A DNA stretch of 64,000 bases, taken from positions 32,409 to 96,408 of the forward strand of contig DYHY01000002.1 in assembly GCA_020723935.1 (NCBI GenBank), written 5' to 3'. The translations under genes and the position numbers were made by a program. Numbering within the stretch: the first letter of the stretch is position 1; every line of letters begins with the position of its first letter. Below the pieces are notes generated by a model, which was given only the letters and a program-made list of their open reading frames with translations, ran no database searches and was not told the origin of the DNA. Positions 2,614-26,205 of this stretch are shown here, piece by piece. This DNA comes from Candidatus Micrarchaeum sp. GTDB lineage: Archaea; SpSt-1190; DYHY01.

Positions 2614-4683
2614 ATGTATCCCAACTACTCCCCCCGGCCCGGAGGGGGTGCAAGCCTCGGCGCTTTCACGCCGTCGGACCCCTTCACGAGCCATTTCTAC
2701 AAGTCCTACCGCGCCGAGGAGAAGGTCCTCCCTGCCTCGTTCTACGAGAAGTTCTGCATGTCGGTGCCCAAGTGGGCCGAGATCCCCCTACCCTTCCTGA
2801 GGAAGCAGTTCTCGAGCGTCCTGCGGGAGGCGCTCCTCGTCTGCAGCCCGGGCCAGGTCTTCACGGTGTCCTTCTACTGTTTCCTCCTCGCGATGATGGT
2901 GGCCGTCTTCGTCCTCACCTCCCTCCCCTACACACCCATACTCCTGGGCGTCGCGGTGGTCTTCCCGCTCATCGTCCTCGTCGGCTTCTACGTCTATCCG
3001 TTCCTCAAAATCAAGATGGACCGCATGGCGGTCGTGGGCGAGGCGCCTCTCGCCATCCTCTACCTCGTCATCTCCTTGCGTGTCTCCCCGAGCCTCGAGA
3101 AGGCGGTGTCCTACGCGAGCAAGAACGTCCCCGAGCCCATAGGCCGCGAGTTCAAGTTCCTGATGTGGGACGTCGAGCTCAAGACGAAGAACTCGATGCA
3201 GGAGGCGATGTTCGCGTACAGCGCGCGGGTGAAGAAGTGGGCGCCGGGCTACTCCGACGCGCTCTACCTCGTCACGAACTCCGTGAACGAGCCCACGAAC
3301 AAGTCGCGCCTCGCGGTCCTCGAGAAGGCGATGAGCCAGGCCCTAGACAACACAAAGGGCATCATGGAGAACTTCGCAAGGGGCCTGGGCTTGCCCGTCG
3401 CCGTCACGAACGCCCTCGCAATACTCCTGCCGGTCCTCGGCCTCGTCATGGCGCCCCTCGCATCCGTCTTCATGCAGCAGGCCGGCGCCCTCCCGGCGAT
3501 GCTGGCGATCGTCTACGACTTCTTCCTCCCAATAGTCCTGGGGCTCATCGTCCTCGTGATACTGGCGGGGCGCCCCGCCACCTTCTCGGACATCGACATC
3601 AGGGGCGACCCGGACCTCCCGGCCGAGGGGCACTACAGGGTGAAGGGCGTGGGCGACATACCCCTGAACCTCGTCTGCCTCGGGATCTTCCTCGCCCTCT
3701 CGTTCATCACAATATTGGTCGCGATAAACACGGGCGGCGTCGTGTTCTCCCCCAACCCCCTCAAGGCGGTCGGCGCGCCGATGGGCTACAACGCCCTCAA
3801 CACGATCCCCTTGATAGCGGCCGTGGGTATCTCCTGCGGCATCTACCTCTACGCGAACAACGTCCAGAAGCTCAAGGCGCGCGACAGAATCCAGGAGATA
3901 GAGCGCGAGTTCGCGGCGAGCCTCTTCCAGCTCGGGAACATCCTGGAGCAGGGCAAGCCCCTCGAGGAGGCCTTCGAGATCGCGGCGCGCGGGATGAAGG
4001 GCACGCACAGCGCCGAGTTCTTCACGAGGACCGTTCACAACATCAGGACGATGGGGATGCCGATAAGGAAGGCAATCTTCGACCCCGAATACGGCGCGAT
4101 GAGGACGTTCTCCTCGAGCCTCATGAAGAACGTCCTCGGCGTCATAATAGAGTCCGCCGACAGCGGGCCCATCGTCGCCGCGCAGACGACGCTCTCCATC
4201 TCGAGCTACGTGCAGAACATCCAGAAGGTACAGGAGAAGATAGCCGACAACCTCGCGGACAGCATAACGGCGATGAAGTTCCAGTCCGCCGTCCTCGTCC
4301 CGCTGATAAGCGCCGTGATCGTGGGCCTCACGCAAATGGTGACAAACATCCTCCTCGCGATGAGCAGGAACGTGAGCGATCTCATGTCCAGCAGCACGAA
4401 CGTCGGGCTCTATTCCGTGTTCTCGTCCTCCCTCTTCAACATCGGGAACGTGATGCAGGGCTCCTACCTCCAGATGGTCGTGGGCTACTACACCCTCGTC
4501 CTCCTCACGACCCTCGGGTTCTTCACGGCGGGCCTCGCGTACGGCGTGCACGACAGAATAGCGATACAGATGAACGTGGGGCAGAGCCTCGCCCTCGGCA
4601 TCATTATTTATTCGGTGATAGTCTTCTTCATAGTGACGGTGTTCGGGGGCCTGGCGACGTCCCTCGTCAGCCAGACCGTCTAG
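2614..4683 (+). CDS. TadC/FlaJ-like secretion platform membrane protein
   Basis: This 689-residue polytopic membrane protein would be the platform on which the ATPase acts to assemble pilin-like subunits. It has an about 75-residue soluble N-terminus, then paired hydrophobic segments (about residues 85-135), a cytoplasmic helical stretch (about 140-260) of T2SSF type, more membrane helices (about 265-310 and 350-420), and a second T2SSF-like cytoplasmic block (about 425-560) followed by three to four helices to the C-terminus. The duplicated layout matches archaeal FlaJ/TadC proteins. The start at 2614 sits 27 nt after TTATATG. It is followed at 27 nt by the first small array gene, and its TAG is in frame with that gene. 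The pairing with the ATPase at the window start is broken only by a decayed acyltransferase gene. Confidence 0.85.
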   Translation: MYPNYSPRPGGGASLGAFTPSDPFTSHFYKSYRAEEKVLPASFYEKFCMSVPKWAEIPLPFLRKQFSSVLREALLVCSPGQVFTVSFYCFLLAMMVAVFVLTSLPYTPILLGVAVVFPLIVLVGFYVYPFLKIKMDRMAVVGEAPLAILYLVISLRVSPSLEKAVSYASKNVPEPIGREFKFLMWDVELKTKNSMQEAMFAYSARVKKWAPGYSDALYLVTNSVNEPTNKSRLAVLEKAMSQALDNTKGIMENFARGLGLPVAVTNALAILLPVLGLVMAPLASVFMQQAGALPAMLAIVYDFFLPIVLGLIVLVILAGRPATFSDIDIRGDPDLPAEGHYRVKGVGDIPLNLVCLGIFLALSFITILVAINTGGVVFSPNPLKAVGAPMGYNALNTIPLIAAVGISCGIYLYANNVQKLKARDRIQEIEREFAASLFQLGNILEQGKPLEEAFEIAARGMKGTHSAEFFTRTVHNIRTMGMPIRKAIFDPEYGAMRTFSSSLMKNVLGVIIESADSGPIVAAQTTLSISSYVQNIQKVQEKIADNLADSITAMKFQSAVLVPLISAVIVGLTQMVTNILLAMSRNVSDLMSSSTNVGLYSVFSSSLFNIGNVMQGSYLQMVVGYYTLVLLTTLGFFTAGLAYGVHDRIAIQMNVGQSLALGIIIYSVIVFFIVTVFGGLATSLVSQTV

Positions 4684-4710
4684 GACGAGGAGGATGAAGG
4701 AAGGACAGAA

Positions 4711-4893
4711 ATGGCAAGCGAGAAGGACCTGCTTGAGCTCGTGATGGAGGTCATCCTCGTCTTCATCATAATAATCATAGTGATAGTCGTCATCTTCCCG
4801 GGGCTCAAGGACTACGCGGCCCGGCTCTCGGAGCTCCCGCGCTCGTTCTTCGTGTCGCTCCTGGACAAGATAGGCTACAGCTGGTGGGGGTAG
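4711..4893 (+). CDS. Small single-helix membrane protein (array gene 1)
   Basis: Sixty residues: an acidic N-terminus (MASEKDLLELVMEV), one very hydrophobic helix rich in Ile and Val (about residues 12-30), and a short tail ending in SWWG. No family is recognised. It is the first of a run of 19 same-strand genes behind the platform protein, most of which have the same N-terminal-helix design. A structural or accessory subunit of the pilus-like machine is likely by context only. Confidence 0.7.
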   Translation: MASEKDLLELVMEVILVFIIIIIVIVVIFPGLKDYAARLSELPRSFFVSLLDKIGYSWWG

Positions 4894-4902
4894 AAAGGCG
4901 TC

Positions 4903-5349
4903 ATGACCAGGAGATTTGTCAGGAGGAAGTGCATCGGGCGCAGGAAGGGCAGCTTCATGGACGACTGGGTGATGAAAATAGCCTGGGGCATACTGATCCT
5001 GGGAATCCTCTACATGGTGGTCCTCATCCTCACTGCCTGGCTCAACAAGCGCGCCCCGCAGGACATCAAGCACGCGGGGGACCTCGTGATAAACCCGATG
5101 ACGGGCCTCGCGCTCGGGATCCCGCCGTGGGGCGGCGCAGGGAAGGGGGGGAAGGGCAAGCGCAAGGCCAAGGCCGCGGCGGGGGGCGCCCGCAGGAAGG
5201 GCGACGCGGAGCTCTCCGTCCCGTTCTGGATAATCTTCTCCTTCGTCGTGATGCTCGTCGTCCTGATAGCCCTGAGGTACCTCAGCACCTACCTCACGAA
5301 GGTGCCCGCCCTCATAGGGAGCAAGGCGGCGGGGGGGCGGCTGATATGA
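4903..5349 (+). CDS. Two-helix membrane protein (array gene 2)
   Basis: A 148-residue protein with a basic N-terminus, a helix at about 25-46, a Gly/Lys/Ala-rich basic linker (about 75-100) and a second helix at about 105-125. It starts 9 nt after the previous stop and overlaps the next gene by ATGA, so translation is probably coupled. No family is recognised. The basic linker between two helices would face the cytoplasm or the outside depending on topology, which the sequence does not settle. Confidence 0.7.
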   Translation: MTRRFVRRKCIGRRKGSFMDDWVMKIAWGILILGILYMVVLILTAWLNKRAPQDIKHAGDLVINPMTGLALGIPPWGGAGKGGKGKRKAKAAAGGARRKGDAELSVPFWIIFSFVVMLVVLIALRYLSTYLTKVPALIGSKAAGGRLI

Positions 5350-5516
5350 GCCGCAGGGCCCAGGAGGGCGCGAGGCAGATGCTCGTCTTCGTCGTCGTCC
5401 TGATACTCGCGTTCATCATCCTGTGGATCTTCGCGTCCAGGAGGACGGACCCCGACAAGATGGCGGCCGTCAGGGACGCGCTGCTCCCGATAATAGACAA
5501 GCTCAAGGGAGGATGA
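5346..5516 (+). CDS. 56-residue single-helix membrane protein (array gene 3)
   Basis: The ATG overlaps the stop of the previous gene (ATGA). The product begins MSRRAQEGARQMLVFVVVL, so a short basic stretch is followed by one hydrophobic helix and then a charged amphipathic tail ending in LKGG. This resembles a minimal class III (archaeal pilin-type) signal sequence with hardly any exterior domain. Coding is supported by overlap at both ends and by the regular membrane-helix pattern. Function unknown. Confidence 0.65.
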   Translation: MSRRAQEGARQMLVFVVVLILAFIILWIFASRRTDPDKMAAVRDALLPIIDKLKGG

Positions 5517-5683
5517 TGCTAACAATGGCGATGGAAACGGATGTCGGATCGGGAAGGAAGGGTCAGGCGACGGAGATGCCGGGGCAGGTCGTGTTCTGGA
5601 TACTGGCGCTGATAGGCCTCGTGATCCTCGTGATCATAGTGATGCGTGGCGGGACGCTCTTCAGGAACCTGTTCGGCACGTAG
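5513..5683 (+). CDS. 56-residue single-helix membrane protein (array gene 4)
   Basis: Begins with tandem ATG codons, the first overlapping the previous stop by 3 nt. About 25 polar residues precede one helix (VVFWILALIGLVILVIIV), then a short RGGTLFRNLFGT tail. The start could also be the second ATG (5516) or an internal Met. Unrecognised; assigned to the pilin-like array from position and design. Confidence 0.6.
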   Translation: MMLTMAMETDVGSGRKGQATEMPGQVVFWILALIGLVILVIIVMRGGTLFRNLFGT

Positions 5684-5716
5684 CGGGGGAAGGAAAAGGG
5701 CGAGAAGAAGGGAAAC

Positions 5717-7185: not shown

Positions 7186-7228
7186 GCCCCGCGCGGGGAA
7201 GGAAGAAAGGAGAGAAAGGGAAAAGGAA

Positions 7229-7777
7229 ATGGCGCAAAGGAAGGCTGCGGAGAGCAGCACAATCATGCTCGTCGTAGCGATAATAGTCGGGCTCGCGGTG
7301 GCCCTAATACTCCTCAAGGGCGGATCCTTCGTGAGCCAGGGGCAGGGGACGATCACGGGCATCGGGCAGAACATCCTCTCCAGGAACAAGGGCGCCTTCG
7401 GGCAGGCCTGTAGGGAATGGAAGGGTGCAAGCGAGGGCCAGCAGAGGGACCCGGGCTTCATCCTGGGCGCGGCGCCCAACCCCGCATCCATCCCGGGGGC
7501 CGCGGGCGCGTACGGGAACAAGTTCAGCTGCTGCAGGGGGAGGTTCGAGGAGGCCGCCAAATATTTCAGATCCAAGCAGGGCGCGTTCAGCCCGCAGCCC
7601 GACCTGACGATCGAGCCCTACGCAAAGTATGTCGACGAATGGAACCTCTGGAGCATGTGCTATTCGGCGTGCCTGGGCTTCTCGGACGTCTACGACCTGT
7701 GCGCGCAGACCTTCCAGGGCGGGGAAGGGGACAGGGATTTCATAAACTGCCTGGAGAACAGTTCGACCGGCTGCTAG
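7229..7777 (+). CDS. Pilin-like Cys-rich protein, tandem paralogue A
   Basis: 182 residues with an N-terminus MAQRKAAESSTIMLVVAII: a basic pair, small residues, Glu, then a helix (about 11-30). The exterior domain contains eight to nine cysteines and ends in GEGDRDFINCLENSSTGC. It is clearly homologous over its full length to the next gene (shared FGQAC-EW, RDPGFILG, NPASIPGAAGAYGN, WNLW and GGEGD-DFI-CL). Cys positions are largely kept, pointing to a disulphide-stabilised domain. Recent tandem duplication with divergence in the middle. Confidence 0.75.
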   Translation: MAQRKAAESSTIMLVVAIIVGLAVALILLKGGSFVSQGQGTITGIGQNILSRNKGAFGQACREWKGASEGQQRDPGFILGAAPNPASIPGAAGAYGNKFSCCRGRFEEAAKYFRSKQGAFSPQPDLTIEPYAKYVDEWNLWSMCYSACLGFSDVYDLCAQTFQGGEGDRDFINCLENSSTGC

Positions 7778-7809
7778 GCGGAGCGCAGGGAGAAAAACCG
7801 GAGAATAGG

Positions 7810-7816
7810 TATATTA
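7810..7816 (+). promoter_or_regulatory. TATA-like element before paralogue B
   Basis: TATATTA lies about 29-35 nt before the ATG at 7845 in a 67-nt gap, one of the few AT-rich gaps inside the array, and may give this gene its own leaderless promoter. Confidence 0.5.
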
Positions 7817-7844
7817 ATAGGAAAGGGGGTGGAAGCGAGGGAAG

Positions 7845-8411
7845 ATGGCAAGGAAAGCCGTGGAAAACAGCGCGATAATGCTCGTCGTAGCGATAATAAT
7901 AGCGCTCATCATAACCATGATCCTCCTCAAGGGCGGCACCTTCGTCAACGAGAAGCAGGGCACCCTAATAGGGATAGGCCAGAGCTTCTTCTCCGGGAAC
8001 AAGGGGGCATTCGGGCAGGCATGCAAGGAATGGCAGAGGGCCAGCGAGAGCCAGCAGCGGGACCCCGGCTTCATCCTGGGCGACCCGCCCAATCCCGCAT
8101 CCATCCCCGGCGCCGCGGGCGCCTACGGCAACAGGTTCGCCTGTTGCAGGGGGCATTTCGAGTCGACAGCCCGCGATTTCAAGAGCAAGGGGGTCAACTT
8201 CAACCCGCAGCCGGACGCCGCGGTCAAGCCCTACGACACACACCCCAACCAGTGGAACCTCTGGAAGGCGTGCTACGACAGTTGCGGCGGCTTCATCAAC
8301 GTCTACGACGCCTGCGCCCAGGAGCATCCCGGAGGGGAAGGGGACAAGGATTTCATACAATGCCTGGACGAGCGGACCGTGAACTCGGGCTGCACGGACG
8401 GGCCTTTGTGA
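7845..8411 (+). CDS. Pilin-like Cys-rich protein, tandem paralogue B
   Basis: 188 residues, paralogue of the preceding gene. It has the same MARKAVENSAIMLVVAII type signal/helix, ILLKGG junction, NKGAFGQAC-EW and NPASIPGAAGAYGN blocks, and the terminal GGEGD-DFIQCL. The exterior carries about nine cysteines. Unlike most array genes it is not overlapped by a neighbour and has its own TATA-like element. Function not recognised; possibly alternative subunits of the same fibre. Confidence 0.75.
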   Translation: MARKAVENSAIMLVVAIIIALIITMILLKGGTFVNEKQGTLIGIGQSFFSGNKGAFGQACKEWQRASESQQRDPGFILGDPPNPASIPGAAGAYGNRFACCRGHFESTARDFKSKGVNFNPQPDAAVKPYDTHPNQWNLWKACYDSCGGFINVYDACAQEHPGGEGDKDFIQCLDERTVNSGCTDGPL

Positions 8412-8445
8412 TGCGGCAAGAAGGGGGAGGAACTGCGTAAGAAGG

Positions 8446-9738
8446 ATGGAAACGACGGGGGCGCGGCCGGGGAGGAGAAGGCGCGGCTTTGAGCCAGTCA
8501 TTGCCCTCGTCGTCGGGATAATCGTCGTCCTCGCCATAGTCTGGCTCATCGCATCGGGCGTGATCTACAAGGTCGTCCCGAACCTCAAGGCCCCGGGCAG
8601 CGTGTTCCTGGAAATGAGGAAGGACTATCTCGTCGGCTCGTGCAAGGGGTGGGTCGACAGCCTCGGCCTCGCGGCGAGCCTCCCCGAAGACCTCGCGGCC
8701 GCGATAAAGGTGAACAACCTCCACTGGGAATCCTTCTGCTCCAAGGAGGCGATAAAGGACCCGCAGAACAAGTGCAGGTGCCTCAAGGCCTGCGTGAAGA
8801 GCCTGGATGCGGAGGAGGCATGCGCCGCCAACCCCAACGCGTACCATCCGGGCCTCTGGACGCCGGGCGCGGACGGGAAGACCGGGAACATCTCCTCGCT
8901 CATGGGGAGCTTCGACAACGTCGAGGCCAGGATGGCACCGACATACTGCTTCCTCAACTTCCTCAAGAGCCTCTCGACGGTGAGCCCCAGCTGCGCGTCC
9001 GAGAGCTCCGGCGGGTACCTGGTGATGGCGGGATTCACGGTGGCGTACAAAACCCCGAAATCGGCGGGGCAGATAGCCACCTACACGGACTCCGGCGGCG
9101 CCGTGGACGTCCCCGAGATACGCGAGCTCACCGCGTCCTGCACCGTCCAGTGCAGGAACCCGGAGGGCTGTGACAACGTCGTCCTCTCCCTGATGTACAA
9201 GTGCAACAAGTTCAACGGGCGCGGCGCGCCGTGGCTGGGCGACGGGGGCCACTGCTGCGACAGGATAGCCTACAGCTACCTGGGCGACGGGAACTGCTTC
9301 GCGGGCAGGAACTGCGGCACCGACCCGTTCTACCAGGGGCCTGTCTGGGACGTCTATTCCGTGCCCGGCTGGAGGAAGGCCTACGAGACGATGCGCACAA
9401 GCACCCCTGCGGTCGCGCTCCCACACATAAACAGTGGCAAATCCTACACCCAGGATTTCACGCTCTACACCCCGCAATGGGACGTGGTGACGCCCTTCTA
9501 CGCGAACGGCATAAACGACCTGGAGGAGAACAACGTGATGTGCGCCGCGTCCTACGCGGGCGACAGGCTCAATTCCGTCGCGCAGACGGTCCTCGTCGGG
9601 AGCGTCAGGGTCAATTCAGGCATCCAGCCGGACGGGACGGAGAGGAAGCTCATGTGCCTCCCCGGGACGAGCGACTGCCAGGACATCTTCTCCAGGTACT
9701 ACGACCTGGACGCCGAAAGGCAGGTGGCCTGCTCATGA
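8446..9738 (+). CDS. Large pilin-like Cys-rich protein (array gene 10)
   Basis: 430 residues. The N-terminus reads METTGARPGRRRRGFEPVI. The basic block, Gly, then F-E-P resembles a prepilin cleavage site (Gly followed by Phe, Glu near +2) and is followed by a helix to about residue 45. The long exterior domain has more than 20 cysteines, some in CRCLKAC and CTVQC patterns, so it must be heavily disulphide-bonded. It overlaps the next gene by ATGA. No family recognised; candidate tip or adhesin-type subunit. Confidence 0.72.
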   Translation: METTGARPGRRRRGFEPVIALVVGIIVVLAIVWLIASGVIYKVVPNLKAPGSVFLEMRKDYLVGSCKGWVDSLGLAASLPEDLAAAIKVNNLHWESFCSKEAIKDPQNKCRCLKACVKSLDAEEACAANPNAYHPGLWTPGADGKTGNISSLMGSFDNVEARMAPTYCFLNFLKSLSTVSPSCASESSGGYLVMAGFTVAYKTPKSAGQIATYTDSGGAVDVPEIRELTASCTVQCRNPEGCDNVVLSLMYKCNKFNGRGAPWLGDGGHCCDRIAYSYLGDGNCFAGRNCGTDPFYQGPVWDVYSVPGWRKAYETMRTSTPAVALPHINSGKSYTQDFTLYTPQWDVVTPFYANGINDLEENNVMCAASYAGDRLNSVAQTVLVGSVRVNSGIQPDGTERKLMCLPGTSDCQDIFSRYYDLDAERQVACS

Positions 9739-10187
9739 CGAGGCGGGGCGCCGTAGAGGTCACGCTCTCGGCGGTCGCCGCCGTCGTGATAGCGATAATA
9801 GTGATAGCGATCGTCTTCTACAACGTGTTCCCCGAGATAAAGATGGCTGTGAACTCCGGGAAGGACATCAAGGGGAGCCAGTACTTCGACATCCAGCAGG
9901 AGATAAAGCTCTGCCAGGCCTGGCACCAGGTGGATTTCATGGACACGATAAAGTTCGGCGTGGACGCCGGATTCGCCAACCTCAAGCTCAACAACCCCGG
10001 CTTCCAGAACCCGATATGCCTCAACCAGGCCCTCGACTACGAGAACTGTACGAAGAAGTGCGTCTCGATGACAGAAATAGGGGACGCGTGCGCCAAGCAC
10101 ACCGACAAGTGCTACCAGATAGACGCGGCGTTCGACGCGCGCTGCGAGCTTGAGGGATGTGTGGCGCTAGGGGGCCTCATGCCATGA
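9735..10187 (+). CDS. Pilin-like protein (array gene 11)
   Basis: 150 residues, ATG overlapping the previous stop. MTRRGAVEVTLSAVAAVVIA is a good prepilin-like start (RRG then A-V-E). The helix extends to about residue 30 and is followed by a small exterior domain with about nine cysteines. It overlaps the next gene by ATGA. Coupled translation with both neighbours implies a shared stoichiometric assembly. Confidence 0.72.
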   Translation: MTRRGAVEVTLSAVAAVVIAIIVIAIVFYNVFPEIKMAVNSGKDIKGSQYFDIQQEIKLCQAWHQVDFMDTIKFGVDAGFANLKLNNPGFQNPICLNQALDYENCTKKCVSMTEIGDACAKHTDKCYQIDAAFDARCELEGCVALGGLMP

Positions 10188-10816
10188 GCGCCATGCGGGC
10201 CGCGGCTCGCCGGCGGGGGCGCATCGGGGACTTTGACATAATGATGCTCGTCGTCGCGGTGGTCGTCGGCCTCATGATACTCGTCATCGGGATACAGGTC
10301 GCCAAGATCACGAGGAAGGGCGGCGAGAGCGTCGGGAGCGACTACCAGGTCAAGGAGGGCGTCGCGTACAGCCAGCTCAAGCTCAAGTGCGGCCTCTGGC
10401 GCGACTCCATCGAGACGTGCGCGAGCGGCGCCTGCACCGCCGACTGCCCCAACTGCCTCGAGACGTTCGCAAGCGACACGCTGAAGGTCTATTCCGTCCC
10501 CTATTACGTGAGGAACTCGAAGCTGGCGAACAGCAGCTACTACGACCCCGCGAACAGCCTCCAGACGCAGAAATGCGACTCGGCCGTCGACACGTGGGCG
10601 ACGAACCCCGGCGGGGAGGCCGCCCAGGCGACGATGGAGATATCCGATTTCATAAGGACCCACGGCGACGAGGCGGTGCAGATCGCCGAGGCATGCTCCT
10701 ACGTCTGCCGCTGGGTGATAGAGAGGGACGAGGAGTGCAGGACAGGGGCGAGGAACTGCGGGGATCTCGTCGTCATGAACGGCCAGCCGATGCCCTACTA
10801 TCTCTACCTTCCATGA
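10184..10816 (+). CDS. Pilin-like protein (array gene 12)
   Basis: 210 residues. The ATG overlapping the upstream stop is preferred over one at 10157, because coupling by ATGA is the rule here. A basic start (RAAARRRGRIGDFD) leads into a helix (about 19-38), then an exterior domain with CASGACTADCPNC and several more cysteines. Unrecognised family. Confidence 0.7.
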   Translation: MSAMRAAARRRGRIGDFDIMMLVVAVVVGLMILVIGIQVAKITRKGGESVGSDYQVKEGVAYSQLKLKCGLWRDSIETCASGACTADCPNCLETFASDTLKVYSVPYYVRNSKLANSSYYDPANSLQTQKCDSAVDTWATNPGGEAAQATMEISDFIRTHGDEAVQIAEACSYVCRWVIERDEECRTGARNCGDLVVMNGQPMPYYLYLP

Positions 10817-10826
10817 GGGGCACAGC

Positions 10827-11387
10827 ATGGTAGGCCACGCGAGAGCGATGCGGAACCGCGCGAGGGTGGCGATCGGGCGGCGGGGCTCGATGGACCAGAC
10901 GATCTGGATTGTCGTCGCGATGATAATAGCTGTCGCCGTCGGAGCGATAATGATGCGGATGATAGACAAGTCGCGCCAGGTGGAATCCCTCTCCGGCGAG
11001 GACAGGTTCTCCCCGGCGGCCGAGACCTTCTGCGCGGAATGGTTCCAGCCGGCGCAGGAGCCGCGGCCGAGGGAATACGCGCCGTCCCAGGCAGCCCTGG
11101 AGAAGTCGACTGACACCTTCCGGGGCATAGGCTGGCTCTCCGCCCAGAAGAATACCGTCTCCAAGGCCTACATTGAGCCCGGCCCCGTGACAGGCTGCGA
11201 CTGCACGGTCTTCCTCGCCTCCACCGCCGGCCATTCGAGGCTCGGGGAATCGCCGGCCGCCGGGCTCCTGCGGTCCGAGTCCGGGAGCGGTTCGTCCTAC
11301 TCCCCGGAAGCCTGCCATAGGAGGGCTGCCTGCGTCGCCCGCTCCCTCCCCGCCCTGGCCGTCTTCTTCGAGGAAAGAACCTGCTAG
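10827..11387 (+). CDS. Pilin-like protein, member of a three-gene paralogous family
   Basis: 186 residues: basic start with IGRRGSMDQTIWIVVAMI, helix to about residue 45, exterior domain with the family blocks AAETFC-EW, GWLSAQKN and GCDCTVFLAST. The same blocks recur in the next gene and in the gene at 30158, so the three form a family. The TC-terminal end (FFEERTC) matches the end of the next gene (KFPARTC). A helper Met at 10848 or 10890 could be the real start. Confidence 0.72.
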   Translation: MVGHARAMRNRARVAIGRRGSMDQTIWIVVAMIIAVAVGAIMMRMIDKSRQVESLSGEDRFSPAAETFCAEWFQPAQEPRPREYAPSQAALEKSTDTFRGIGWLSAQKNTVSKAYIEPGPVTGCDCTVFLASTAGHSRLGESPAAGLLRSESGSGSSYSPEACHRRAACVARSLPALAVFFEERTC

Positions 11388-11420
11388 GCGCCATTTAAGC
11401 CCTCTCAAAAGGCCAAAACA

Positions 11421-11430
11421 ATAAATAATA
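11421..11430 (+). promoter_or_regulatory. TATA-like element in an AT-rich gap
   Basis: ATAAATAATA lies 27 nt before the ATG at 11457 inside an unusually AT-rich 69-nt gap, suggesting an internal promoter within the array. Confidence 0.5.
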
Positions 11431-11456
11431 CAGTAGCATTAACACAAGACAGCACC

Positions 11457-12050
11457 ATGGCCCACGGACGCAAATCAAGCGAACAACCCATCTGGCTTCT
11501 AGTCGCGCTACTGCTAGCGGTCGTAGTCGGCATAGCGATGTTCAGCACGATCAACAGTGGCATGAACAAGTTCGGCACATTCACCCAGGCCACCGGCCAG
11601 GAGAGCGACCGGATAGCGATAGAGACTTTCTGCAAGAACTGGATAAGGCCGCAGGAAGTCGACCTTGCGGGCAACATCAACCCGCGCGCATCCGAGCCCA
11701 CCGCGCCGGAGCGCGAGAGGGCGACGGACTCGTTCAGGAAGTACGGCTGGCTCCTCGCGGAGAAGGACTCGAACAAGGTGTATCTGGAGACGGGCCCGCC
11801 CAGCGGATGCGACTGCATAGTCTTCCTCACCTCAAGCGTCGGCTCGTCCTCGCTCCCGCCCACCAGAGCCAAGCAGTTCCTCGTCTCCGAAGCCAGCACC
11901 GGCTCAATGTACGACCCGGTAAAGTGCGGATTCAAGGCGTACTGCATCGGGAAGACGTCCATACCGGAGCTTGGGGGCGTCGAGCTGTTCGGCGAGGGGA
12001 GCCTGAGCGCCACGGCGATGGAAGCCAAGTTCCCGGCGCGCACCTGCTAG
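11457..12050 (+). CDS. Pilin-like protein, paralogue of 10827 and 30158 genes
   Basis: 197 residues. MAHGRKSSEQPIWLLVALL is the signal/helix, followed by FGTFTQATGQESDR, AIETFCKNWIRPQEVDL, a KYGWLLAEKDS block, GCDCIVFLTSS and a final PARTC. These are near-identical to blocks of the gene at 30158, where the Gln of FTQATG is replaced by an in-frame TAG. Four to five cysteines in the exterior. Function not recognised; surface subunit by context. Confidence 0.74.
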   Translation: MAHGRKSSEQPIWLLVALLLAVVVGIAMFSTINSGMNKFGTFTQATGQESDRIAIETFCKNWIRPQEVDLAGNINPRASEPTAPERERATDSFRKYGWLLAEKDSNKVYLETGPPSGCDCIVFLTSSVGSSSLPPTRAKQFLVSEASTGSMYDPVKCGFKAYCIGKTSIPELGGVELFGEGSLSATAMEAKFPARTC

Positions 12051-14372: not shown

Positions 14373-14404
14373 GCATCCAGGGGATTTGGGCCGCGGAAGG
14401 GCAC

Positions 14405-15602: not shown

Positions 15603-15604
15603 AG

Positions 15605-16882: not shown

Positions 16883-17619
16883 CGGGCGAGGAAGCCGGAA
16901 GGCGGAGCGGCGGGCGCAGGGCGCAGGGCGCCGAGACGATAGTCGTGCTCATCTTCATCGTCGCGATGTTCTTCGCGCTCATCGTCGCTTTGGCGTTCCT
17001 CAAATTCAAGGTGAACTTCGCGATAACGGAGGTGAGTGCGCAGGAGGACCAGCTCCCGACGATGCAGGCGCTCTCCTACTCCACCGTCGGGCGGCTCATA
17101 AGGACGCCCGTGCTCTTCTACAACCTCGCTAGCATCGCATCCGTCACGGGCCAGGACGTCTTCATCTTCTCGGCTGAGAGCGGCTCGGTGAGCATCCAAG
17201 ACATACTGAACCAGAAGCTCGAGACGTATTCCGCGGGGCAGCTAGCGCTCTTCTACCCCAAGTGCTTCGAATACAACCTGAACGACGAGATGCGCGGACC
17301 CCTCTGGACCAAGTTCCTCGCCGCGGGCACGATCCAGGCCGACAGCTGCCAGGAGTACGGGGCGAGCCAGGCGGACAAGGGCCAGGAGACGTTTGCCAAG
17401 AAGAACTACATCTACTTCTTCCCGCTCCCGCCCCTCTCCGACGGGACGGCGCGCCTGAGCGAGCAGTTCATCAGGGTCTTCGCCCTGCGCGACAAGCCCA
17501 GGATCATGGCCCCCTCCGGAGGGGTGGAGCGGCCCGACTGCAACGCCAACGGCGCGGCCGCGTCCCTCCCCGAGGACTGCTGCTCTGGAAGGATGGCTGG
17601 CGGAGTCTGCATGCCCTGA
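16879..17619 (+). CDS. Pilin-like protein (last array gene)
   Basis: 246 residues, ATG overlapping the previous stop. GGRRAQGAETIVVLIFIVAM is a prepilin-like signal (basic, A-Q-G-A-E, helix). The exterior domain has Cys residues only toward the end (CNANG, DCCSG, CMP). No family recognised. It ends the plus-strand array; the next gene is convergent. Confidence 0.72.
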   Translation: MTGEEAGRRSGGRRAQGAETIVVLIFIVAMFFALIVALAFLKFKVNFAITEVSAQEDQLPTMQALSYSTVGRLIRTPVLFYNLASIASVTGQDVFIFSAESGSVSIQDILNQKLETYSAGQLALFYPKCFEYNLNDEMRGPLWTKFLAAGTIQADSCQEYGASQADKGQETFAKKNYIYFFPLPPLSDGTARLSEQFIRVFALRDKPRIMAPSGGVERPDCNANGAAASLPEDCCSGRMAGGVCMP

Positions 17620-19072: not shown

Positions 19073-22000
19073 TTGGATTCCGACCGCAAGCCCGGGGATG
19101 CCCGGCTGGAGCAGGCCGCGCGCACGAGGCATGCCGCAGCCCGGGCCGGAAGCGCGGGCCGCAGGGGCGTAGGCCCGGCGGTCATAATCATCGGCGGAAT
19201 CATCGTCGTCGCGATCGCCATCGCCCTGTTCTTCCTCTGGCTCCAGTCGCTCGCGACGATTGACTTGCAGGCGGACATCGAGGCTTCCGAGAACAAGTAC
19301 GTGACCGCGATACATGTCATGGAGGAGGCGCGCATCTACATAAAGACCGCGACGGAATACGCGCTGCAGCTAGCAGTCCTGGACGTCTCTAGGCACGGCG
19401 GATACATCGAAAGTCCCAAGACAGGATCCAACGGGCTCCCGTACCTGGGCTGGATAAACCCCGACTGGACGGCCTTCGCGCCGTGGCTCGGGCGCGACGT
19501 CTACAGCGAGCACGGTTTCCCGCTCAGGTGCCCGGAGAGCGACAGCGATTACGCGTTCGTCATCACCCCGCCGCAGGTGAGCGACCCCAACGCCCGGCCC
19601 CTTGTCGACAAAATACTGCGCGAGATAAACTACTCCGTCCCGCCGATGCTTGAGCAGTACGTGCAGATCCTCGAGAGCAACTCGTCGCAGTACAAGCTCA
19701 ACATCACAGTCTGGGACCACAACGCCGGGAGCTGGTATTTCAACAAATTCTGCCTGGACTTGGGCGGCCCGGCCCTCCCGAACGACCCGGCCCTCTGGAG
19801 CAACATTGAGAGTTCGGGGGTCGCGTGGGTGAAGGCGGGCTTCGCCTGGGGGGACATCCAGTCCGCGCAGGGCGGGGAATACGACTGGACCCGTGTTGAC
19901 GCGCTCTACACGGAAGCCGAGAAAAGGAACATAGAGGTGATCCCGATATTCGGCTGGCCGCCGCAATGGGCGAGGACCGAGGCCGGCGTGAACGACGTCT
20001 GCATCGGCGGCGGGGCGGGCGGCTGCAGCAACAGGCCCGACTACGACAAGTACGACGACTACGCGGCGTTCATCTCGTCCTTCATGAGCCACGTGAAGGG
20101 GCGGGGCTGGCAGATCAACTACGTGATACCTTGGGTCCCGGGGATAAACAAGGCCGACAAGTGGTCCGCCGTCGGGATCGACACGGCGGAGTTCGCGCGC
20201 TTCTTCAAGATAGTCTCGCTCAAGATCAGGGCGACCGAGCCGTCCGTGAAAGTCATACTCCCGGCGCTCACCGAATACGCGGAAGTGTGCGGCTACGACG
20301 GGTACCCCCTCGACCCCAAGCCATGGAGCCTCTTCCAGACCGGAGGGGGGTGCGGCGCGTACGCGTGCCCGGCCGGGAAGAGCTGCGGCGGGGTGAAGTA
20401 CATAGCCGGCTGCGCGAGCCCTTACGACACCGAGAGCCAGGCGGAATGCTTCGCGATAAACGCGGTCGACTGCACGCGCTCCGAGGCGATCCACACCGCC
20501 GGCCCCGACGGCAACCTGACATGCCAGCACTACGACTACTGGCACCCCTACATGTACGACCTGTCCGTGCGCCCGCCCGACACCAGGCGCGTCGTCTACA
20601 CCGCGATGACGCAGTCGGCGTTCCTCAACGACCTCTACATCAACGGAATAAATGACTATTTCGACGCGATGGAGGTCTGGGGGAGGGGCGCGAGCACCGA
20701 CGAGCAGCTCCAGCGCGCGGACCTCTACAAAGGGAAGCTCGAGAGATACAAGGACACTGAGAAGAAGATATGGTTCGAGCCCATAGTGAGCGACGTGTCC
20801 CTTGAGCCGGCGCCCACCGCCCAGTTCATCGCCGAAATCTATTCCAGGGTCCAGCAGTCGCCCCAGTACGACTATCTGGGGCCTGTCTGCCTCGGCGGAT
20901 GGGGCCCGGGCACGATATCGGGCCTCGCCGCGCTCAAGAAGCCAATCTACTTCGCCCCGTGGGGCGAGACCAACCTCACGACGGTGCACGAGACGCGCGT
21001 CTACACGACCCCGCCGTCGGTCGTCTCAAGCAAGCAGTTCACGGGCTTCGGGATGACGAAATCCGTCGACAACACGACCGCGGCCCTGGGCTTCTCGATA
21101 CAGGAGATACTCAACGAGGCGAGGATGATAGCCAAGAACCCGTCGCGCGCGGTGATGTCCGGCGGCGTATCGTGCTCCTCCAAGAACGGCTTCTGCCCGG
21201 CGGCGTGGTGGAAGCGCGGCGACGCGAAATCCTGTCAGATAGGGAACTACGTCTGCCCGACGGACGCGGGGGACGGCGAGATAACCTGCAGCGCGAACGA
21301 GGTCGTCCCCTACAAAATGACATGCACCGCGGTCGCGGCCCTCTACGAATACACCTGCGTCGTCGATTCCGACGACTATCCGGGGCCGGGGGTCCCCTAC
21401 GTCAACGCCAACTCCTGCAATGAGGGCGTGACATGGGTGACCGGGCAGGACGCCGCCGGCGGGGCGACCCTCGGGAGCAAGGGCGTGTGCGTCGCGCTCA
21501 AGGACGCGAAAGACAACGAGATCAAGTGCAGCCAGATAAACAAGGACAGCCACCGCCTCGGGATAAAGAACCCGTTCATATTCTGCAGGAACGTCGACGA
21601 CCAGTGCTGCAGCTGGTCCGACACCCCCTACGAGTACGAGAAGGACCTGAGCATCGCCAAGCAGAGCACCGGATGCTATTGCCAGGCGCTTAACCCCAGG
21701 AGCGGCAGCCCCGGGGACCCTGGGGACAGCAGCGTCAACGACGGGCCCGCGGGAAAATTCTTCTGCACTGGAGGCATACCCAGCTACAAGTGCGACTCGT
21801 GGTTCGGGGCGGACGGATGGGTGGCGAACGACCTGGGCACGGTGGACTTCGGAACGGACTATCCGGACGCCTACATGTCCGGCTGCAGGAACGAGGGAAG
21901 GAACCACGGCGGCGTTCCTTGGGTCGAAATATGCACGAAAAATCCAAAACCCTGCTACGACAGCGCATACGATGGGCAGTCCCCGCCGCCGGAGATATCT

Positions 22001-25000
22001 TTGACAGGCCCGGACTGGGGCGCGTTCCACTCTGAAAGCAAGCCTCCTGAATGCGCGGCCGCCGGTGCCGACTGCGAGCTGGGTCCGGAAGAACCGCAAG
22101 GTTGTGGCGGAGACTTCTTTTCAGACGGGGCCGGCCACTGCTGCAAGATGGTCGGCACTCCTCCACAGCCAGATTGCAGCAGGGACGAGCCCACGAAGCG
22201 CTTCTGGTGGTGCGAGGCCAAGGACACGGATCCGAGCGCCCAACCGCCCGAAGAGAAGCACGTCCCGTGCGGCGACGAGGGGTCCGGCGTCCCGGGGCTT
22301 TGCACGCGCCAGAGGCCCGGAGACAAGAAGATCTACAATCCCCTGCCCTGCCCCGGGCCCAACGGATGCTTCGGAGCGCTCCGGGGCGCGCCCTACCAAA
22401 TACCCAACTACAAGGAAGGCTGGAAGGGCGACGCGCCGGCGAGCGAGATAGACGGCGGCCGGGTGTGGGGCAACGTCCCCGAGGAAGGGGAGAGCGTCGC
22501 ATTCCACCTGCAGAGCGCAGCGGGGGGGAGCCTTAACAAGTGCGCGGATTCCGTAGAGGATCCCGCGTACCCGTATCCGGACAACGCCATGGAATGCTGG
22601 GACGCGAGGCCCGTCCCGACGCTCAACAAGATCCATGACCCGGAGCAGAAGCGAAACGATGTGCGCCTCTCGCGCCTCGACTGCGAGGTGACGGTGACCA
22701 ACGCCCGCTGGGCCCTCCTCTCGCTCACGCAGGGCGAGCTCACATCGGCCGACGCGTTCAAGAGCTTCCCCGACGAGTTCAAGTTCAACCTGGAGCTCCA
22801 GTACCGCGACAAGGACTGCCTAAGAGGCATAGCCGCGGAGGGCGACCCGCCGAGGCCCAAGTCAACGAAGTTCGAGGAGGGGCAGGCATTCGAGCACGAC
22901 TGCACGTTCTACCGCCTGCCCAACACAGAATGGGCCAAGGACCCGGTGCCGGGCGACCCGTGGCCCCCCGACACCGAGCCGATACAGCGCCTTGAGCACA
23001 AAAACCTGCCCGTGCCCCCGGGCTACAAGACGCTGGACATACAGGGCGCGAGGAACTCAATACCGGGCTGCTGCGGCTACGAGAAGAACAACACCGAGTT
23101 CAAGGCGACGATAAACTTCGGCTACGACATAACCCCGCCCGGGCCGGTGAACGGCCTGAACAACCCGGGGGCGGGGAGCGCCGCGGACCTCACCCCCGTG
23201 CCGGCGATCGGGGGCTGCGGCTCGATAAAGCCCTCGTTCACGAGCTCCTCGCAGATACCGAACCTGGCGCTCTTCCAGCAGGTCTCGCAGGAGACAGGGG
23301 TCCCTGTCATCTACCTCCTCGCGAGGGGCTGGGACGAGTCGGGCCTCAACCACTTTTCCACGGACGGGGTCACGGTCAAGGGCTGCACGAGCGGCACGAG
23401 CGGATGCCACGGGTACATCGGCATAATGGCGGTCTCCGCATCGATCCCGGGCGTGACCGACATCCTCACCAACATCCGCGAGGGGGCGAGGAAGCTGAAG
23501 GCGGACATCGACAGGGTCGGGAGCTTCCAGGGCGCGGTCATGATGTATTCGGGCGGCCCGACGGGGGGCTGCCAGCACATAACGACGCTCCTGGGCGGGA
23601 CGGTCGGGGGCTTCTACGAATACGACCTCTCCAAATGCAAGAAGCCACCCGCAGACTGGGTCCCGCAGCTGTCCACGATAACGAGCAGGACATTCAGGGA
23701 CCCCAAGGTCCTGATCTACAACCAAGGGAGCCCGTCCCTGGACGATCGGCAGATATCGCTCTACGGCTATTCGATCGAATGGCAGAACGCCTGCGCGCTC
23801 TTCAGGGATTACGAGGCGGTGCAGGTGATAGCCCCTCTATTGGGCGGAGGCAGCTCTGCGACGACAACCACGACTGCCGGGCCCAGCCCTCCGGCGGGGG
23901 GCTTTGAGCTCGGCGGCCAGGTGGCGGGCGGCCTCTCCGACAACGCCCTCGCCAAGATGAAGTGCTCAGGCATGACGTGGGTGAAACAGCAGATAAGGTG
24001 GGTCCCCGGCGCGAACCCCCAGGATCCGAAGGGCCTGATAGACGACATCCACGGCAAGGGGCTGAAAGTCCTCCTCAGCATAACGGGCGACAACGGGAAT
24101 CCGGCCGCCTTCCCCACGCCCGCGCAGTTCGACAGCTACGCCTCCTACGTGGCGGGGGTCGCGACGCTCGGGCCCGACGCGATAGAGGTCTGGAACGAGC
24201 CGAACCTTGACAGGGAGTGGCCCAACGGCCAAGTGAACGGTGGGAATTACGTCAATCTCCTCAAGAAAGCGTACCCGGCGATCAAAGCCGCGAACCCGCA
24301 GGTCCTGGTGATTTCGGCGGCGCTCGCGGAGACCGGGGCCGCCGGGAGCGCCGGATGCACGGCGGCCTACTGCAACTACGACACGTTCCTCGGGCAGATG
24401 GCTTCGGCCGGGGCGGACGCCTACCTCGACTGCGTCGGAGCCCACTACAACAGCGGCGTCGTCAGGCCTACGTCCTCGAGCGGCGACCCGCGCGCGCAGG
24501 ATCCCAAGTACAGCTACTTCTCTTCCGTCAAGGACACTTACAAGGCGGCGTTCCCCGGCAAGCCCGTGTGCTTCACGGAAATAGGCTACTTCTCCAGCGA
24601 CGGGTTCTCGGGGGCGCCGGCGGGGATCAACTTCGACCACAACCTCGCAGACCACGCGGCATTCGACGGCGAGATACCGACGGCCTCCAAGCAGGATTCG
24701 TTGGTGAAGCTCGCCATAATATGGAACGTGGACTTCACGTTCTACGACCCGGCGGGCGACCCGCAGGCGGGCTGGGCGATAATACGCCCCGACGGGAGCT
24801 GCCCCGCGTGCGCGGCGATGGGCGCGGCGATGGGGGCGCCCGGCGCATCCAGCTGCGCCTCCGCCGGCGGCGGGATCAACGGGGACGAGGAATGCGCGAA
24901 CGGCAGCCCCTATCCCGGCGAGGGGGGGATGGGCGGGGGAGGCGGCGGGGGCGGAGGGCCCTACCCGCCCGGAGGGATCGGGGCGGGAGACTACTGCAAC

Positions 25001-25531
25001 CCAGTCCCCACTTCGACGAGCTTCGGCAACCTGTTCTGCGCGTGGAACGGGCACAACGGCCTGGACTTCATGGCCAACGAAGGCGACCCCCTCTACGCGA
25101 TACAAGAGGGCACAGTCATCTTCGCGAGGGACAGCTTCAACGAGAACTGCGGGGACGCGAGCCTTCCGCCCGGATACGTGCGCTGCGGCCTCTGCGAGAC
25201 GAGGTGCTACAGCTGCAGCAGGAACGCCCTCGTCATACAGCACCCGGACGGCAGGTACAGCACCTACCTCCACCTCAAGCCGGGGAGCATCCTTGTGAGG
25301 AGCGGGCACGTGAACAGGGGCCAGCAAATAGCCCAGATAGGGGACGAGGGCTGCTCCAGCAGCCCCCACCTGCACCTCGAGATGGCGACCCTCGGCTCGC
25401 TAGGCGGGCAGGACAGGGGCTGTAACTCGGGGACCGACTGCTGTAAGGCTTCCTCGTACTACGGCCCGCTGTTCAGCGCCAAGACGATAGACCCCGGACC
25501 GTACACGCAGAGACTATGCACGGCGCCCTAG
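19073..25531 (+). CDS. Giant anchored multi-domain hydrolase: GH-like x2, SLT-like, M23 peptidase
   Basis: 2,152 residues from a TTG start (the frame is open up to 18668). After a basic N-terminus ending AGSAGRRGVGPA comes one pilin-like helix (about 37-58). Exterior regions in order are a clan-A glycosidase-like barrel (about 230-600) lacking the usual N-E-P acid/base motif, a long Cys-rich part (about 690-1350), an SLT-like domain (about 1390-1520; WDESGL gives candidate Glu 1422), and a second clan-A barrel (about 1610-1920) with intact EVWNEPN (Glu about 1709) and CFTEIGYF (Glu about 1836). After a Gly-rich linker comes an M23/LytM endopeptidase domain (about 1970-2140) with HNGLD and HLHLE metal ligands. 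It would act outside the cell on glycans and peptide cross-links of a wall. The single N-terminal helix ties it to the preceding pilin-like array. Confidence 0.82.
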   Translation: MDSDRKPGDARLEQAARTRHAAARAGSAGRRGVGPAVIIIGGIIVVAIAIALFFLWLQSLATIDLQADIEASENKYVTAIHVMEEARIYIKTATEYALQLAVLDVSRHGGYIESPKTGSNGLPYLGWINPDWTAFAPWLGRDVYSEHGFPLRCPESDSDYAFVITPPQVSDPNARPLVDKILREINYSVPPMLEQYVQILESNSSQYKLNITVWDHNAGSWYFNKFCLDLGGPALPNDPALWSNIESSGVAWVKAGFAWGDIQSAQGGEYDWTRVDALYTEAEKRNIEVIPIFGWPPQWARTEAGVNDVCIGGGAGGCSNRPDYDKYDDYAAFISSFMSHVKGRGWQINYVIPWVPGINKADKWSAVGIDTAEFARFFKIVSLKIRATEPSVKVILPALTEYAEVCGYDGYPLDPKPWSLFQTGGGCGAYACPAGKSCGGVKYIAGCASPYDTESQAECFAINAVDCTRSEAIHTAGPDGNLTCQHYDYWHPYMYDLSVRPPDTRRVVYTAMTQSAFLNDLYINGINDYFDAMEVWGRGASTDEQLQRADLYKGKLERYKDTEKKIWFEPIVSDVSLEPAPTAQFIAEIYSRVQQSPQYDYLGPVCLGGWGPGTISGLAALKKPIYFAPWGETNLTTVHETRVYTTPPSVVSSKQFTGFGMTKSVDNTTAALGFSIQEILNEARMIAKNPSRAVMSGGVSCSSKNGFCPAAWWKRGDAKSCQIGNYVCPTDAGDGEITCSANEVVPYKMTCTAVAALYEYTCVVDSDDYPGPGVPYVNANSCNEGVTWVTGQDAAGGATLGSKGVCVALKDAKDNEIKCSQINKDSHRLGIKNPFIFCRNVDDQCCSWSDTPYEYEKDLSIAKQSTGCYCQALNPRSGSPGDPGDSSVNDGPAGKFFCTGGIPSYKCDSWFGADGWVANDLGTVDFGTDYPDAYMSGCRNEGRNHGGVPWVEICTKNPKPCYDSAYDGQSPPPEISLTGPDWGAFHSESKPPECAAAGADCELGPEEPQGCGGDFFSDGAGHCCKMVGTPPQPDCSRDEPTKRFWWCEAKDTDPSAQPPEEKHVPCGDEGSGVPGLCTRQRPGDKKIYNPLPCPGPNGCFGALRGAPYQIPNYKEGWKGDAPASEIDGGRVWGNVPEEGESVAFHLQSAAGGSLNKCADSVEDPAYPYPDNAMECWDARPVPTLNKIHDPEQKRNDVRLSRLDCEVTVTNARWALLSLTQGELTSADAFKSFPDEFKFNLELQYRDKDCLRGIAAEGDPPRPKSTKFEEGQAFEHDCTFYRLPNTEWAKDPVPGDPWPPDTEPIQRLEHKNLPVPPGYKTLDIQGARNSIPGCCGYEKNNTEFKATINFGYDITPPGPVNGLNNPGAGSAADLTPVPAIGGCGSIKPSFTSSSQIPNLALFQQVSQETGVPVIYLLARGWDESGLNHFSTDGVTVKGCTSGTSGCHGYIGIMAVSASIPGVTDILTNIREGARKLKADIDRVGSFQGAVMMYSGGPTGGCQHITTLLGGTVGGFYEYDLSKCKKPPADWVPQLSTITSRTFRDPKVLIYNQGSPSLDDRQISLYGYSIEWQNACALFRDYEAVQVIAPLLGGGSSATTTTTAGPSPPAGGFELGGQVAGGLSDNALAKMKCSGMTWVKQQIRWVPGANPQDPKGLIDDIHGKGLKVLLSITGDNGNPAAFPTPAQFDSYASYVAGVATLGPDAIEVWNEPNLDREWPNGQVNGGNYVNLLKKAYPAIKAANPQVLVISAALAETGAAGSAGCTAAYCNYDTFLGQMASAGADAYLDCVGAHYNSGVVRPTSSSGDPRAQDPKYSYFSSVKDTYKAAFPGKPVCFTEIGYFSSDGFSGAPAGINFDHNLADHAAFDGEIPTASKQDSLVKLAIIWNVDFTFYDPAGDPQAGWAIIRPDGSCPACAAMGAAMGAPGASSCASAGGGINGDEECANGSPYPGEGGMGGGGGGGGGPYPPGGIGAGDYCNPVPTSTSFGNLFCAWNGHNGLDFMANEGDPLYAIQEGTVIFARDSFNENCGDASLPPGYVRCGLCETRCYSCSRNALVIQHPDGRYSTYLHLKPGSILVRSGHVNRGQQIAQIGDEGCSSSPHLHLEMATLGSLGGQDRGCNSGTDCCKASSYYGPLFSAKTIDPGPYTQRLCTAP

Positions 25532-25560
25532 GCGGGCGGCAATCTGGAGAAGAGGCTTAT

Positions 25561-26205
25561 ATGAACGAATGGCGCAACACGGGATACGGGGGAAGGTCGC
25601 TCCTGCTTGCCGCGGCGGCCCTGCTCCTGATCGCCGTCCTCGCAGCCCCGGCGGCGGCCCTCCCTGAGTACTGGCGAGCCGAGCCGCCGGCCAACGGGAG
25701 CATCACGCTCAAGCTCGTCTACGTCGTCGTAGCCGCGAACTCAACGCCCGCCGGGAGGATAAAGCAAGTGGATGTGAGGAACGTGACGATGCCCTTCTCG
25801 CTCAACCTCGGAACGTCGGAAGGCGGCGGCGGCCCGTTCGTCCTGCGGGAGGTCTGGGGGGACGGCTATTCCGCCGAGGCGCGGTTCGGGATAGACGAAA
25901 AAAATCCGGCGACGCAGGATGTCTGGCTGATCTTCAACCCGCCCGAGAGCACCGACGGCAAGACGCTCACGCTGGTCCTCGAGAACTCGGGGGCGGAACT
26001 GGACAGGATGGCGGTGCCCTACTGCGGGGACGGGACGTGCATGAAGGGCGAGAGCGTCGTCTCGTGCGTGCCGGACTGCGGCAGGTTCCTGCGCCTCTCC
26101 CGCCAGCAGGCGTCCAAGGCGGTCCAGTTCCTCGCCGGCGGGATCCTCCTCGCGCTCCTCGCCCTTTCAGTGTTCTTCGTCGCGAAGCGGATGGACGAGC
26201 CGTAG
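25561..26205 (+). CDS. Exported protein with signal peptide and C-terminal membrane anchor
   Basis: 214 residues: Sec-type signal peptide (hydrophobic run ending APAAALPEYW, about residue 35), an exterior beta-rich-looking domain, a Cys cluster YCGDGTCMKGESVVSCVPDCG (with a calcium- or dockerin-like look) and a C-terminal helix (about 185-207) followed by KRMDEP. The ATG at 25561 is preferred to one at 25516, which overlaps the giant gene. A GGAGAAGAGG stretch about 12 nt upstream could bind the ribosome. It probably accompanies the giant protein. Family not recognised. Confidence 0.72.
   Translation: MNEWRNTGYGGRSLLLAAAALLLIAVLAAPAAALPEYWRAEPPANGSITLKLVYVVVAANSTPAGRIKQVDVRNVTMPFSLNLGTSEGGGGPFVLREVWGDGYSAEARFGIDEKNPATQDVWLIFNPPESTDGKTLTLVLENSGAELDRMAVPYCGDGTCMKGESVVSCVPDCGRFLRLSRQQASKAVQFLAGGILLALLALSVFFVAKRMDEP

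Follow-up and report, generated by a model that had tools for sequence, protein, structure and literature searches.

In a 64,000-nucleotide stretch of the Candidatus Micrarchaeum sp. assembly SpSt-1190 (contig DYHY01000002.1, positions 32,409 to 96,408; hereafter the window, G000:C17:32409-96408 in our numbering), a type-4-filament-like machine, made of a secretion ATPase and a TadC/FlaJ-like membrane platform, precedes a series of about 20 genes. Nearly all of these encode single-pass pilin-like proteins, and two of the proteins, g19 and g22, carry peptidoglycan hydrolase domains. In related archaea that we call Nanoarchaeota-type (a putative label for the phylum of genome G035), an M23 peptidase, or an SLT lytic transglycosylase together with M23, occupies a single position in an orthologous subunit whose counterparts in related genera contain no hydrolase. 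Because the subunits hold wall-cutting enzymes, and relatives hold different ones in matching subunits, the arrays suggest a device for opening bacterial cells. The archaeal genome is 1.14 Mb in 47 contigs and 91% complete; genes were called with a simple codon-usage script, and individual starts are uncertain. The machine and its array comprise the following features, in window coordinates (G and L numbers refer to genomes and loci).

1..1366, plus strand: C-terminal part of a CpaF/FlaI-like secretion ATPase (Pfam T2SSE, 6.6e-17)
2614..4683, plus strand: double TadC/FlaJ-like membrane platform, 689 residues (alignment A1)
4711..5683, plus strand: g03-g06, small membrane proteins of 60, 148, 56 and 56 residues
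5717..7185, plus strand: g07-g09, pilin-like subunits of 191, 232 and 65 residues with an N-terminal helix, ordered as in G001
7229..8411, plus strand: g10 and g11, tandem paralogous cysteine-rich pilin-like subunits of 182 and 188 residues, 63% identical (alignment A4, 8 members)
8446..10816, plus strand: g12-g14, pilin-like subunits of 430, 150 and 219 residues, with matches in the G001 array for g12 (E 2e-10) and g14 (E 1e-8)
10827..12050, plus strand: g15 and g16, paralogous pilin-like subunits of 186 and 197 residues, 39% identical to each other, with orthologues in G001, G004 and G002
12121..14372, plus strand: g17 (199 residues) and g18 (551 residues), the latter a large pilin-like subunit whose C-terminus matches a 753-residue G001 protein (E=7e-6)
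14445..15602, plus strand: g19, pilin-like subunit of 385 residues with an SLT lytic transglycosylase domain set within it at about residues 127-222 (Pfam SLT 1.7e-7, over the cut-off)
15566..16882, plus strand: g20, pilin-like subunit with a degenerate SLT-like C-terminus (alignment A2), matching a 324-residue G001 protein
16879..17619, plus strand: g21, pilin-like subunit of 246 residues with RRAQG ahead of its N-terminal helix, in the slot of a 188-residue G001 protein
19073..25531, plus strand: g22, pilin-anchored protein of 2152 residues with a TTG start, containing triosephosphate-isomerase-barrel-like regions and the four parts below
19757..20992, plus strand: g22 glycosidase-like region 1 (GH30_2, E=0.016, below the cut-off; aligns with region 2, E=0.008)
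23120..23581, plus strand: g22 SLT-like transglycosylase domain, catalytic Glu present (alignment A2)
23828..24787, plus strand: g22 glycosidase-like region 2, with NEP and TEIGY motifs (GH39, 8.6e-4, below the cut-off)
25049..25390, plus strand: g22 M23 peptidase domain (Pfam M23 4.7e-16, over the cut-off)

In the window, a graft is seen in g19. Compared with its 181-residue orthologue in G001, residues 22-88 and 306-347 of g19 match residues 21-89 and 111-152, and the SLT domain falls between these two flank matches. The orthologue has no SLT domain, so that the domain was apparently either inserted in the window genome or lost in G001. The catalytic Glu of this SLT/GH23-type lytic transglycosylase domain is retained and activity is predicted; a PDB sequence search with the SLT region of g19 returned no match. 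In g20, the position of the catalytic Glu is occupied by Arg. The proposal of an earlier, sequence-only reading of this DNA that the array ends in transglycosylase-like proteins is thus sound for g19 and applies to g20 only in degenerate form.

The same reading described g22 as a glycosidase, transglycosylase and M23 protein with a pilin-like anchor, of which the glycosidases are the weakly supported part. The M23 domain has intact metal-binding and catalytic motifs of the HxxxD and HxH type (HNGLD at 1994, HLH at 2099), as expected of an M23 endopeptidase, and the SLT-like domain is 31% identical to that of g19 (E=4e-16). Region 1 lacks the NEP catalytic motif found in region 2, PDB matches to the glycosidase-like regions are weak (E 0.005-0.011 for region 2), and the glycosidase assignments, being under the Pfam cut-offs, are weakly supported; we do not claim glycosidase activity. 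The N-terminal pilin module of g22 is shared with a 654-residue G001 protein in which Pfam detects no hydrolase, and the g22 carrier module matches the carriers of the hydrolases in G077, G078, G079 and G094 by profile (hhalign E=4e-6, probability 87%).

A similar pattern is seen among Nanoarchaeota-type genomes. A hydrolase-free subunit of 462 residues in G114 is collinear with a 618-residue subunit containing M23 in G116 and with an 865-residue subunit containing SLT and M23 in G131: residues 4-342 and 345-461 of the G114 protein correspond to 13-341 and 502-615 in G116, and residues 1-341 and 345-461 correspond to 1-331 and 739-861 in G131. The subunits of G116 and G131, like g19, therefore combine a pilin-like module with a separate functional domain, as modular pilins do. 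Other arrays carry other enzymes: the last gene is an SLT subunit in G077, G078 and G079, a related carrier module bears Amidase_2 and is preceded by a GH5-like subunit in G094, and an SLT subunit is followed by M15 in G165. Wherever an array includes hydrolase subunits, they are encoded at its 3' end or close to it, and several arrays combine a glycan-cutting with a peptide-cutting enzyme. Overall, 6 SLT-bearing Nanoarchaeota-type genomes have an SLT domain on the TadC strand and no more than 10 kb downstream of that gene, against 0.33 expected (P=1.5e-6). For this test the SLT places were counted by hand, and the SLT protein of one of the six genomes, G132, is not among the pilin-like ones.

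It is worth asking whether such domains cut at all. They might instead serve as adhesins at the filament tip, binding bacterial peptidoglycan or glycans and holding a partner without meaningful cutting, in line with the frequent use of bacterial modular pilins as adhesins (PMC8179133), with the missing catalytic Glu of g20 and the missing NEP motif of g22 region 1, and with a 1492-residue array subunit of G042 (L063, minus strand 4867-9345) that has LamG/concanavalin A-like lectin domains (E=5e-39), a binding rather than a cutting payload. We nevertheless regard this explanation as unlikely, given that catalytic residues are kept in the SLT domain of g19, in the SLT-like and M23 domains of g22, and in the SLT domains of relatives, and that glycan-cutting and peptide-cutting enzymes are paired in several arrays.

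The machine that these subunits accompany is conserved as well. The secretion ATPase and TadC/FlaJ-like platform were correctly recognised by the sequence-only reading. The ATPase has a full length of 766 residues, beginning before the window (L009:17475-19775) and stopping at window position 1366, and its T2SSE domain places it with the T2SSE/VirB11-type secretion ATPases of the type 4 filament superfamily. The TadC family of the window gene is present in 35 of the 61 archaeal genomes searched. TadC is kept beside the ATPase across DPANN-type genomes, and a nine-member TadC profile found a match in all 38 transglycosylase-bearing Nanoarchaeota-type genomes tested (38/38). The closest named relative by TadC, at 51% identity, is the metagenome-assembled genome (MAG) CSMAG_2918, deposited as ‘Candidatus Altiarchaeota’ (JAUXGB010000013.1); further relatives bear the labels SpSt-1190, DPANN group archaeon and Undinarchaeales. 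The larger cluster proteins, excluding g03, g05, g06, g09 and g13, were scanned with Pfam and gave no match to the Tad-specific parts TadZ, RcpA secretin, RcpC/CpaB and Flp pilin.

Downstream of the platform, g03-g21 form a run of 19 genes on one strand (4711-17619). The claim that nearly all products have a single pilin-like helix holds, in that a single strongly hydrophobic N-terminal helix is found in all of them except g04, which has two. The order of ATPase, TadC and array recurs across DPANN-type archaea, with an array in 31 of the 38 TadC loci examined (median of 9 pilin-like genes) and none in the other 7 under our rule. The genes of relatives thus lie next to the ATPase/TadC pair in the same order and are not scattered. 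Within the window's own group, gene order 3' of TadC is conserved, with shorter versions in G004 and G002. In G001, the array that corresponds to g03-g22 encodes proteins of 64, 51, 62, 62, 160, 178, 52, 186, 173, 133, 221, 143, 147, 753, 181, 324, 188 and 654 residues; the correspondence is direct by sequence for g10, g12, g14, g15/g16, g18, g19, g20 and g22, and by order and size for the remainder. The slots of g03-g06 are matched by small genes (about 45-71 residues) in G001, G002, G004, G005, G006, G008 and G009.

The N-termini of the array proteins point to processing of the pilin type. A [KR][GA] motif adjoins the first hydrophobic helix in 161 of 299 array proteins, compared with a mean of 62 and a maximum of 82 after shuffling of the pre-helix residues, and with 25 of 95 other N-terminal-helix proteins from the same loci. 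Outside the arrays, runs of such genes reach at most 5, with a median of 1. The array subunits thus carry class III-like leaders, enriched above chance, whose cleavage is predicted. A prepilin peptidase of the A24 family, the absence of which would have spoken against the sequence-only reading, is encoded in this genome (E=3.4e-9, over the cut-off) and in 12 of 13 other genomes searched.

The variety of the subunits could also be taken to indicate a secretion pseudopilus, i.e., a type II secretion-like piston or a bacteriocin-like release of hydrolases, in which the pilin-like parts would act as pseudopilins and membrane anchors. The short subunits are numerous and diverse, none of them standing out as the major pilin, and archaeal peptidoglycan hydrolases are able to kill bacteria (PMC12352652). 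By contrast, the hydrolases here are fused inside an anchored subunit rather than encoded separately as secreted substrates, and we consider a pseudopilus improbable.

As to whose wall would be cut, a Mur ligase (PF08245) was found neither in this genome nor in nine relatives, eight of which have array-borne hydrolases. The genomes searched are 77-97% complete, and an absence common to them is unlikely to be a gap. The substrate of the hydrolases is presumably foreign, because the genomes that encode them have no Mur ligases. SLT, M23, Amidase_2 and M15 are families acting on bacterial-type peptidoglycan, and this, together with the lack of Mur ligases, makes a foreign, bacterial target the simplest reading. 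The earlier suggestion of an apparatus that opens the wall of another cell, either prey or host, is consistent with both the enzyme classes and the missing Mur ligases, with the qualification that bacterial prey and bacterial host are indistinguishable on these data.

Taken together, we moderately favor the view that this is a DPANN-type type-4-filament machine whose modular pilins, with grafted wall hydrolases, cut the bacterial wall locally on contact. This view builds on conserved synteny, class III-like leaders, domain insertion in subunits, conserved catalytic residues, and the absence of Mur ligases. The A24 prepilin peptidase would trim the leaders of the pilin-like subunits, and the ATPase and double TadC platform would extrude many different subunits as a short heteropolymeric filament or pseudopilus. 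The large subunits encoded last would be modular pilins, each anchored in the filament by its N-terminal module, probably at the tip by analogy with bacterial modular pilins (PMC8179133). The grafted domains, here two lytic transglycosylase domains, an M23 endopeptidase, and glycosidase-like domains, would then work outside the cell, and on contact the filament may cut a bacterial wall or hold on to it, with attachment, feeding, or lysis as the proposed benefit. More tentatively, some DPANN-type archaea may possess a contact-dependent, pilus-based wall-piercing device, made of heteropolymeric filaments with interchangeable tip subunits and paired glycan- and peptide-cutting enzymes, directed at bacterial prey or hosts. 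If true, this would mean that archaea prey on or parasitise members of another domain with a class of weapon not recognised before.

Several observations weigh against the favored view. The 689-residue TadC/FlaJ-like protein is under the Pfam T2SSF cut-off (14.8 bits versus 25.2). Structure prediction, proposed earlier as a check, yielded AlphaFold2 models of low confidence for both g19 (predicted local distance difference test, pLDDT, 46), with a helix at 11-63 and strands flanking the SLT region, and g10 (pLDDT 54), which was modelled as all-helical with no classical pilin head. The pilin fold of the subunits is therefore unproven, neither model being confident, and the pilin nature of the carrier modules is argued from leader and gene context. 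The homology between the g22 carrier and those of the other group is also modest. In G132, a 3624-residue SLT protein within the array was not counted as pilin-anchored, since it combines a secretion signal with a C-terminal anchor and has no pilin leader. In addition, several hydrolases of the same archaea are located outside arrays, and the majority of arrays contain no hydrolase that can be recognised, which makes wall cutting optional and not a core function of the arrays.

This last point is also the basis for a further explanation, in which the machine gives DPANN archaea a filament for DNA uptake or for motility/adhesion and the grafts are incidental, serving, for example, passage through bacterial biofilm or debris. 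Since most arrays, including those of all f2-family relatives, have no recognised hydrolases, the core machine should have another job. However, in several family-level groups, non-homologous wall enzymes (SLT, M23, M15, and Amidase_2) recur in the same slot or close to it, which argues for selection on wall cutting, and we judge incidental grafting to be very improbable.

Parts of this picture are already known separately. Type-4-pilus-like loci with CpaF, TadC, and coiled-coil proteins have been described in DPANN archaea (‘The parasitic lifestyle of an archaeal symbiont’, PMC11291902), and they resemble the present locus in the kind of ATPase and TadC and in a divergent coiled-coil pair upstream. 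In our genome, this pair lies on the minus strand, divergent from the ATPase (L009:16062-17018 and 16984-17373), and is homologous to pairs beside other DPANN-type arrays (E to 1e-20 and 1e-17); the comparison with the published loci is by description. In that paper, one locus is reported to include FlaF/PilA filament proteins, autolysin-like proteins are listed apart, and the section on pilus-like loci does not describe hydrolase domains inside subunits. Likewise, the dark-matter islands of DPANN genomes contain FlaI/TadC and many diverse pilins (Makarova 2019, PMC6393860), similar to the multi-pilin arrays beside ATPase and TadC seen here, with no murein hydrolase domains mentioned in the description of the islands. 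The earlier statement that known archaeal systems have few pilins was thus incomplete.

Large murein-like lytic transglycosylases have been reported in Woesearchaeota and Pacearchaeota (Castelle 2021, PMC8204110; Vigneron 2022, PMC9723730). The enzyme class and the proposed bacterial target are those of the present case, and the archaea are small and probably symbiotic. These enzymes are described as large extracellular proteins, and the word pili is absent from both main texts; some large SLT proteins in the present relatives are likewise not pilin-anchored. Archaeal peptidoglycan hydrolases that kill bacteria (PMC12352652) also include M23 and occur in archaea without peptidoglycan, whereas the modular enzyme of that study has wall-binding domains, and the text mentions neither pili nor pilins. 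A similar design is that of the bacterial modular type IV pilins PilB and PilC of Streptococcus sanguinis (PMC8179133), in which a functional domain is grafted on a pilin module for display on the filament. These pilins belong to bacteria and commonly serve adhesion, whereas the archaeal grafts are peptidoglycan hydrolases, some of them within the subunit.

The new element, relative to the known multi-pilin TadC loci and murein hydrolases of DPANN archaea, is therefore the modular grafting of hydrolases onto pilus-machine subunits, which carries the modular-pilin principle beyond bacteria into archaea and beyond adhesion to the hydrolysis of walls. We found no paper with hydrolases inside pilus-machine subunits in the open-access literature; subscription papers and preprints were outside the search, and priority is uncertain. 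Cultivated DPANN archaea have been reported to live on archaeal hosts (PMC11291902). Wall enzymes that form part of a surface machine's subunits and, on matching subunits, differ between lineages indicate bacterial targets more directly than free hydrolases do, and they bear on whether some DPANN archaea live on, or prey on, bacteria. The loci mark genomes and domains worth testing.

Hydrolases of other architecture were also encountered in these archaea. Very large multi-helix SLT proteins in f52-family genomes (1458-2029 residues; L116, L126, L129) lie outside arrays, near several lipoprotein genes, and were left out of the count. Neighboring SLT and M23 genes, mostly of 300-370 residues and 1-2 kb apart, recur away from TadC in genomes of the f66 and f67 families, namely G187, G190, G193, G199, G201, and G202, and possibly encode a secreted pair. 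A 2108-residue protein with M23 and SLT in G003 (L071:806-9967, plus strand) is followed by genes similar in size to the two TadC-linked G003 genes; it was not counted, as the G003 MAG is 3.8 Mb with 6% contamination.

An assembly chimera or contamination was rejected for the window because gene order on both sides of the array matches that of relatives (the coiled-coil pair and ATPase upstream; Band_7, Alba, and radical SAM downstream) and because the third-position G+C content of g19-g22 (0.81-0.88) is like that of the remainder. Scans of the window for tRNA and Rfam families were empty, and no phage-specific search was made. The ATPase and TadC genes directly adjoin in most relatives examined, unlike in the window, where degenerate acyltransferase-like remnants of open reading frames, broken by stops, lie between them (1480-2202). 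A low-scoring lipoprotein-like open reading frame, with an LSGC motif and rich in Thr and Pro, is found on the minus strand between g21 and g22 (17674-18666). Three further features follow g22.

25516..26205, plus strand: g23, probably an accessory protein, with hydrophobic segments at residues 29-47 and 205-223
29747..30085, plus strand: Alba-like gene, of a kind bordering such arrays in many relatives (L053, L061, L062, L069, L114, L120)
30086..31933, plus strand: third g15/g16 paralogue, directly after the Alba-like gene, with one in-frame TAG and a Cys-rich extension

From its two segments, g23 is probably a signal-peptide protein with a C-terminal anchor and not a pilin. It shares a Cys motif resembling CGDGTCxxGExxxxCPxDC with the 654-residue G001 protein (L053), in which the motif is repeated. 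In the third g15/g16 paralogue, the TAG at 30320 aligns with a Gln in g16, and the Cys-rich extension is about 280 residues long; a broken copy is likelier than recoding, because TAG is the stop codon of 16 of the 47 well-scored genes here.

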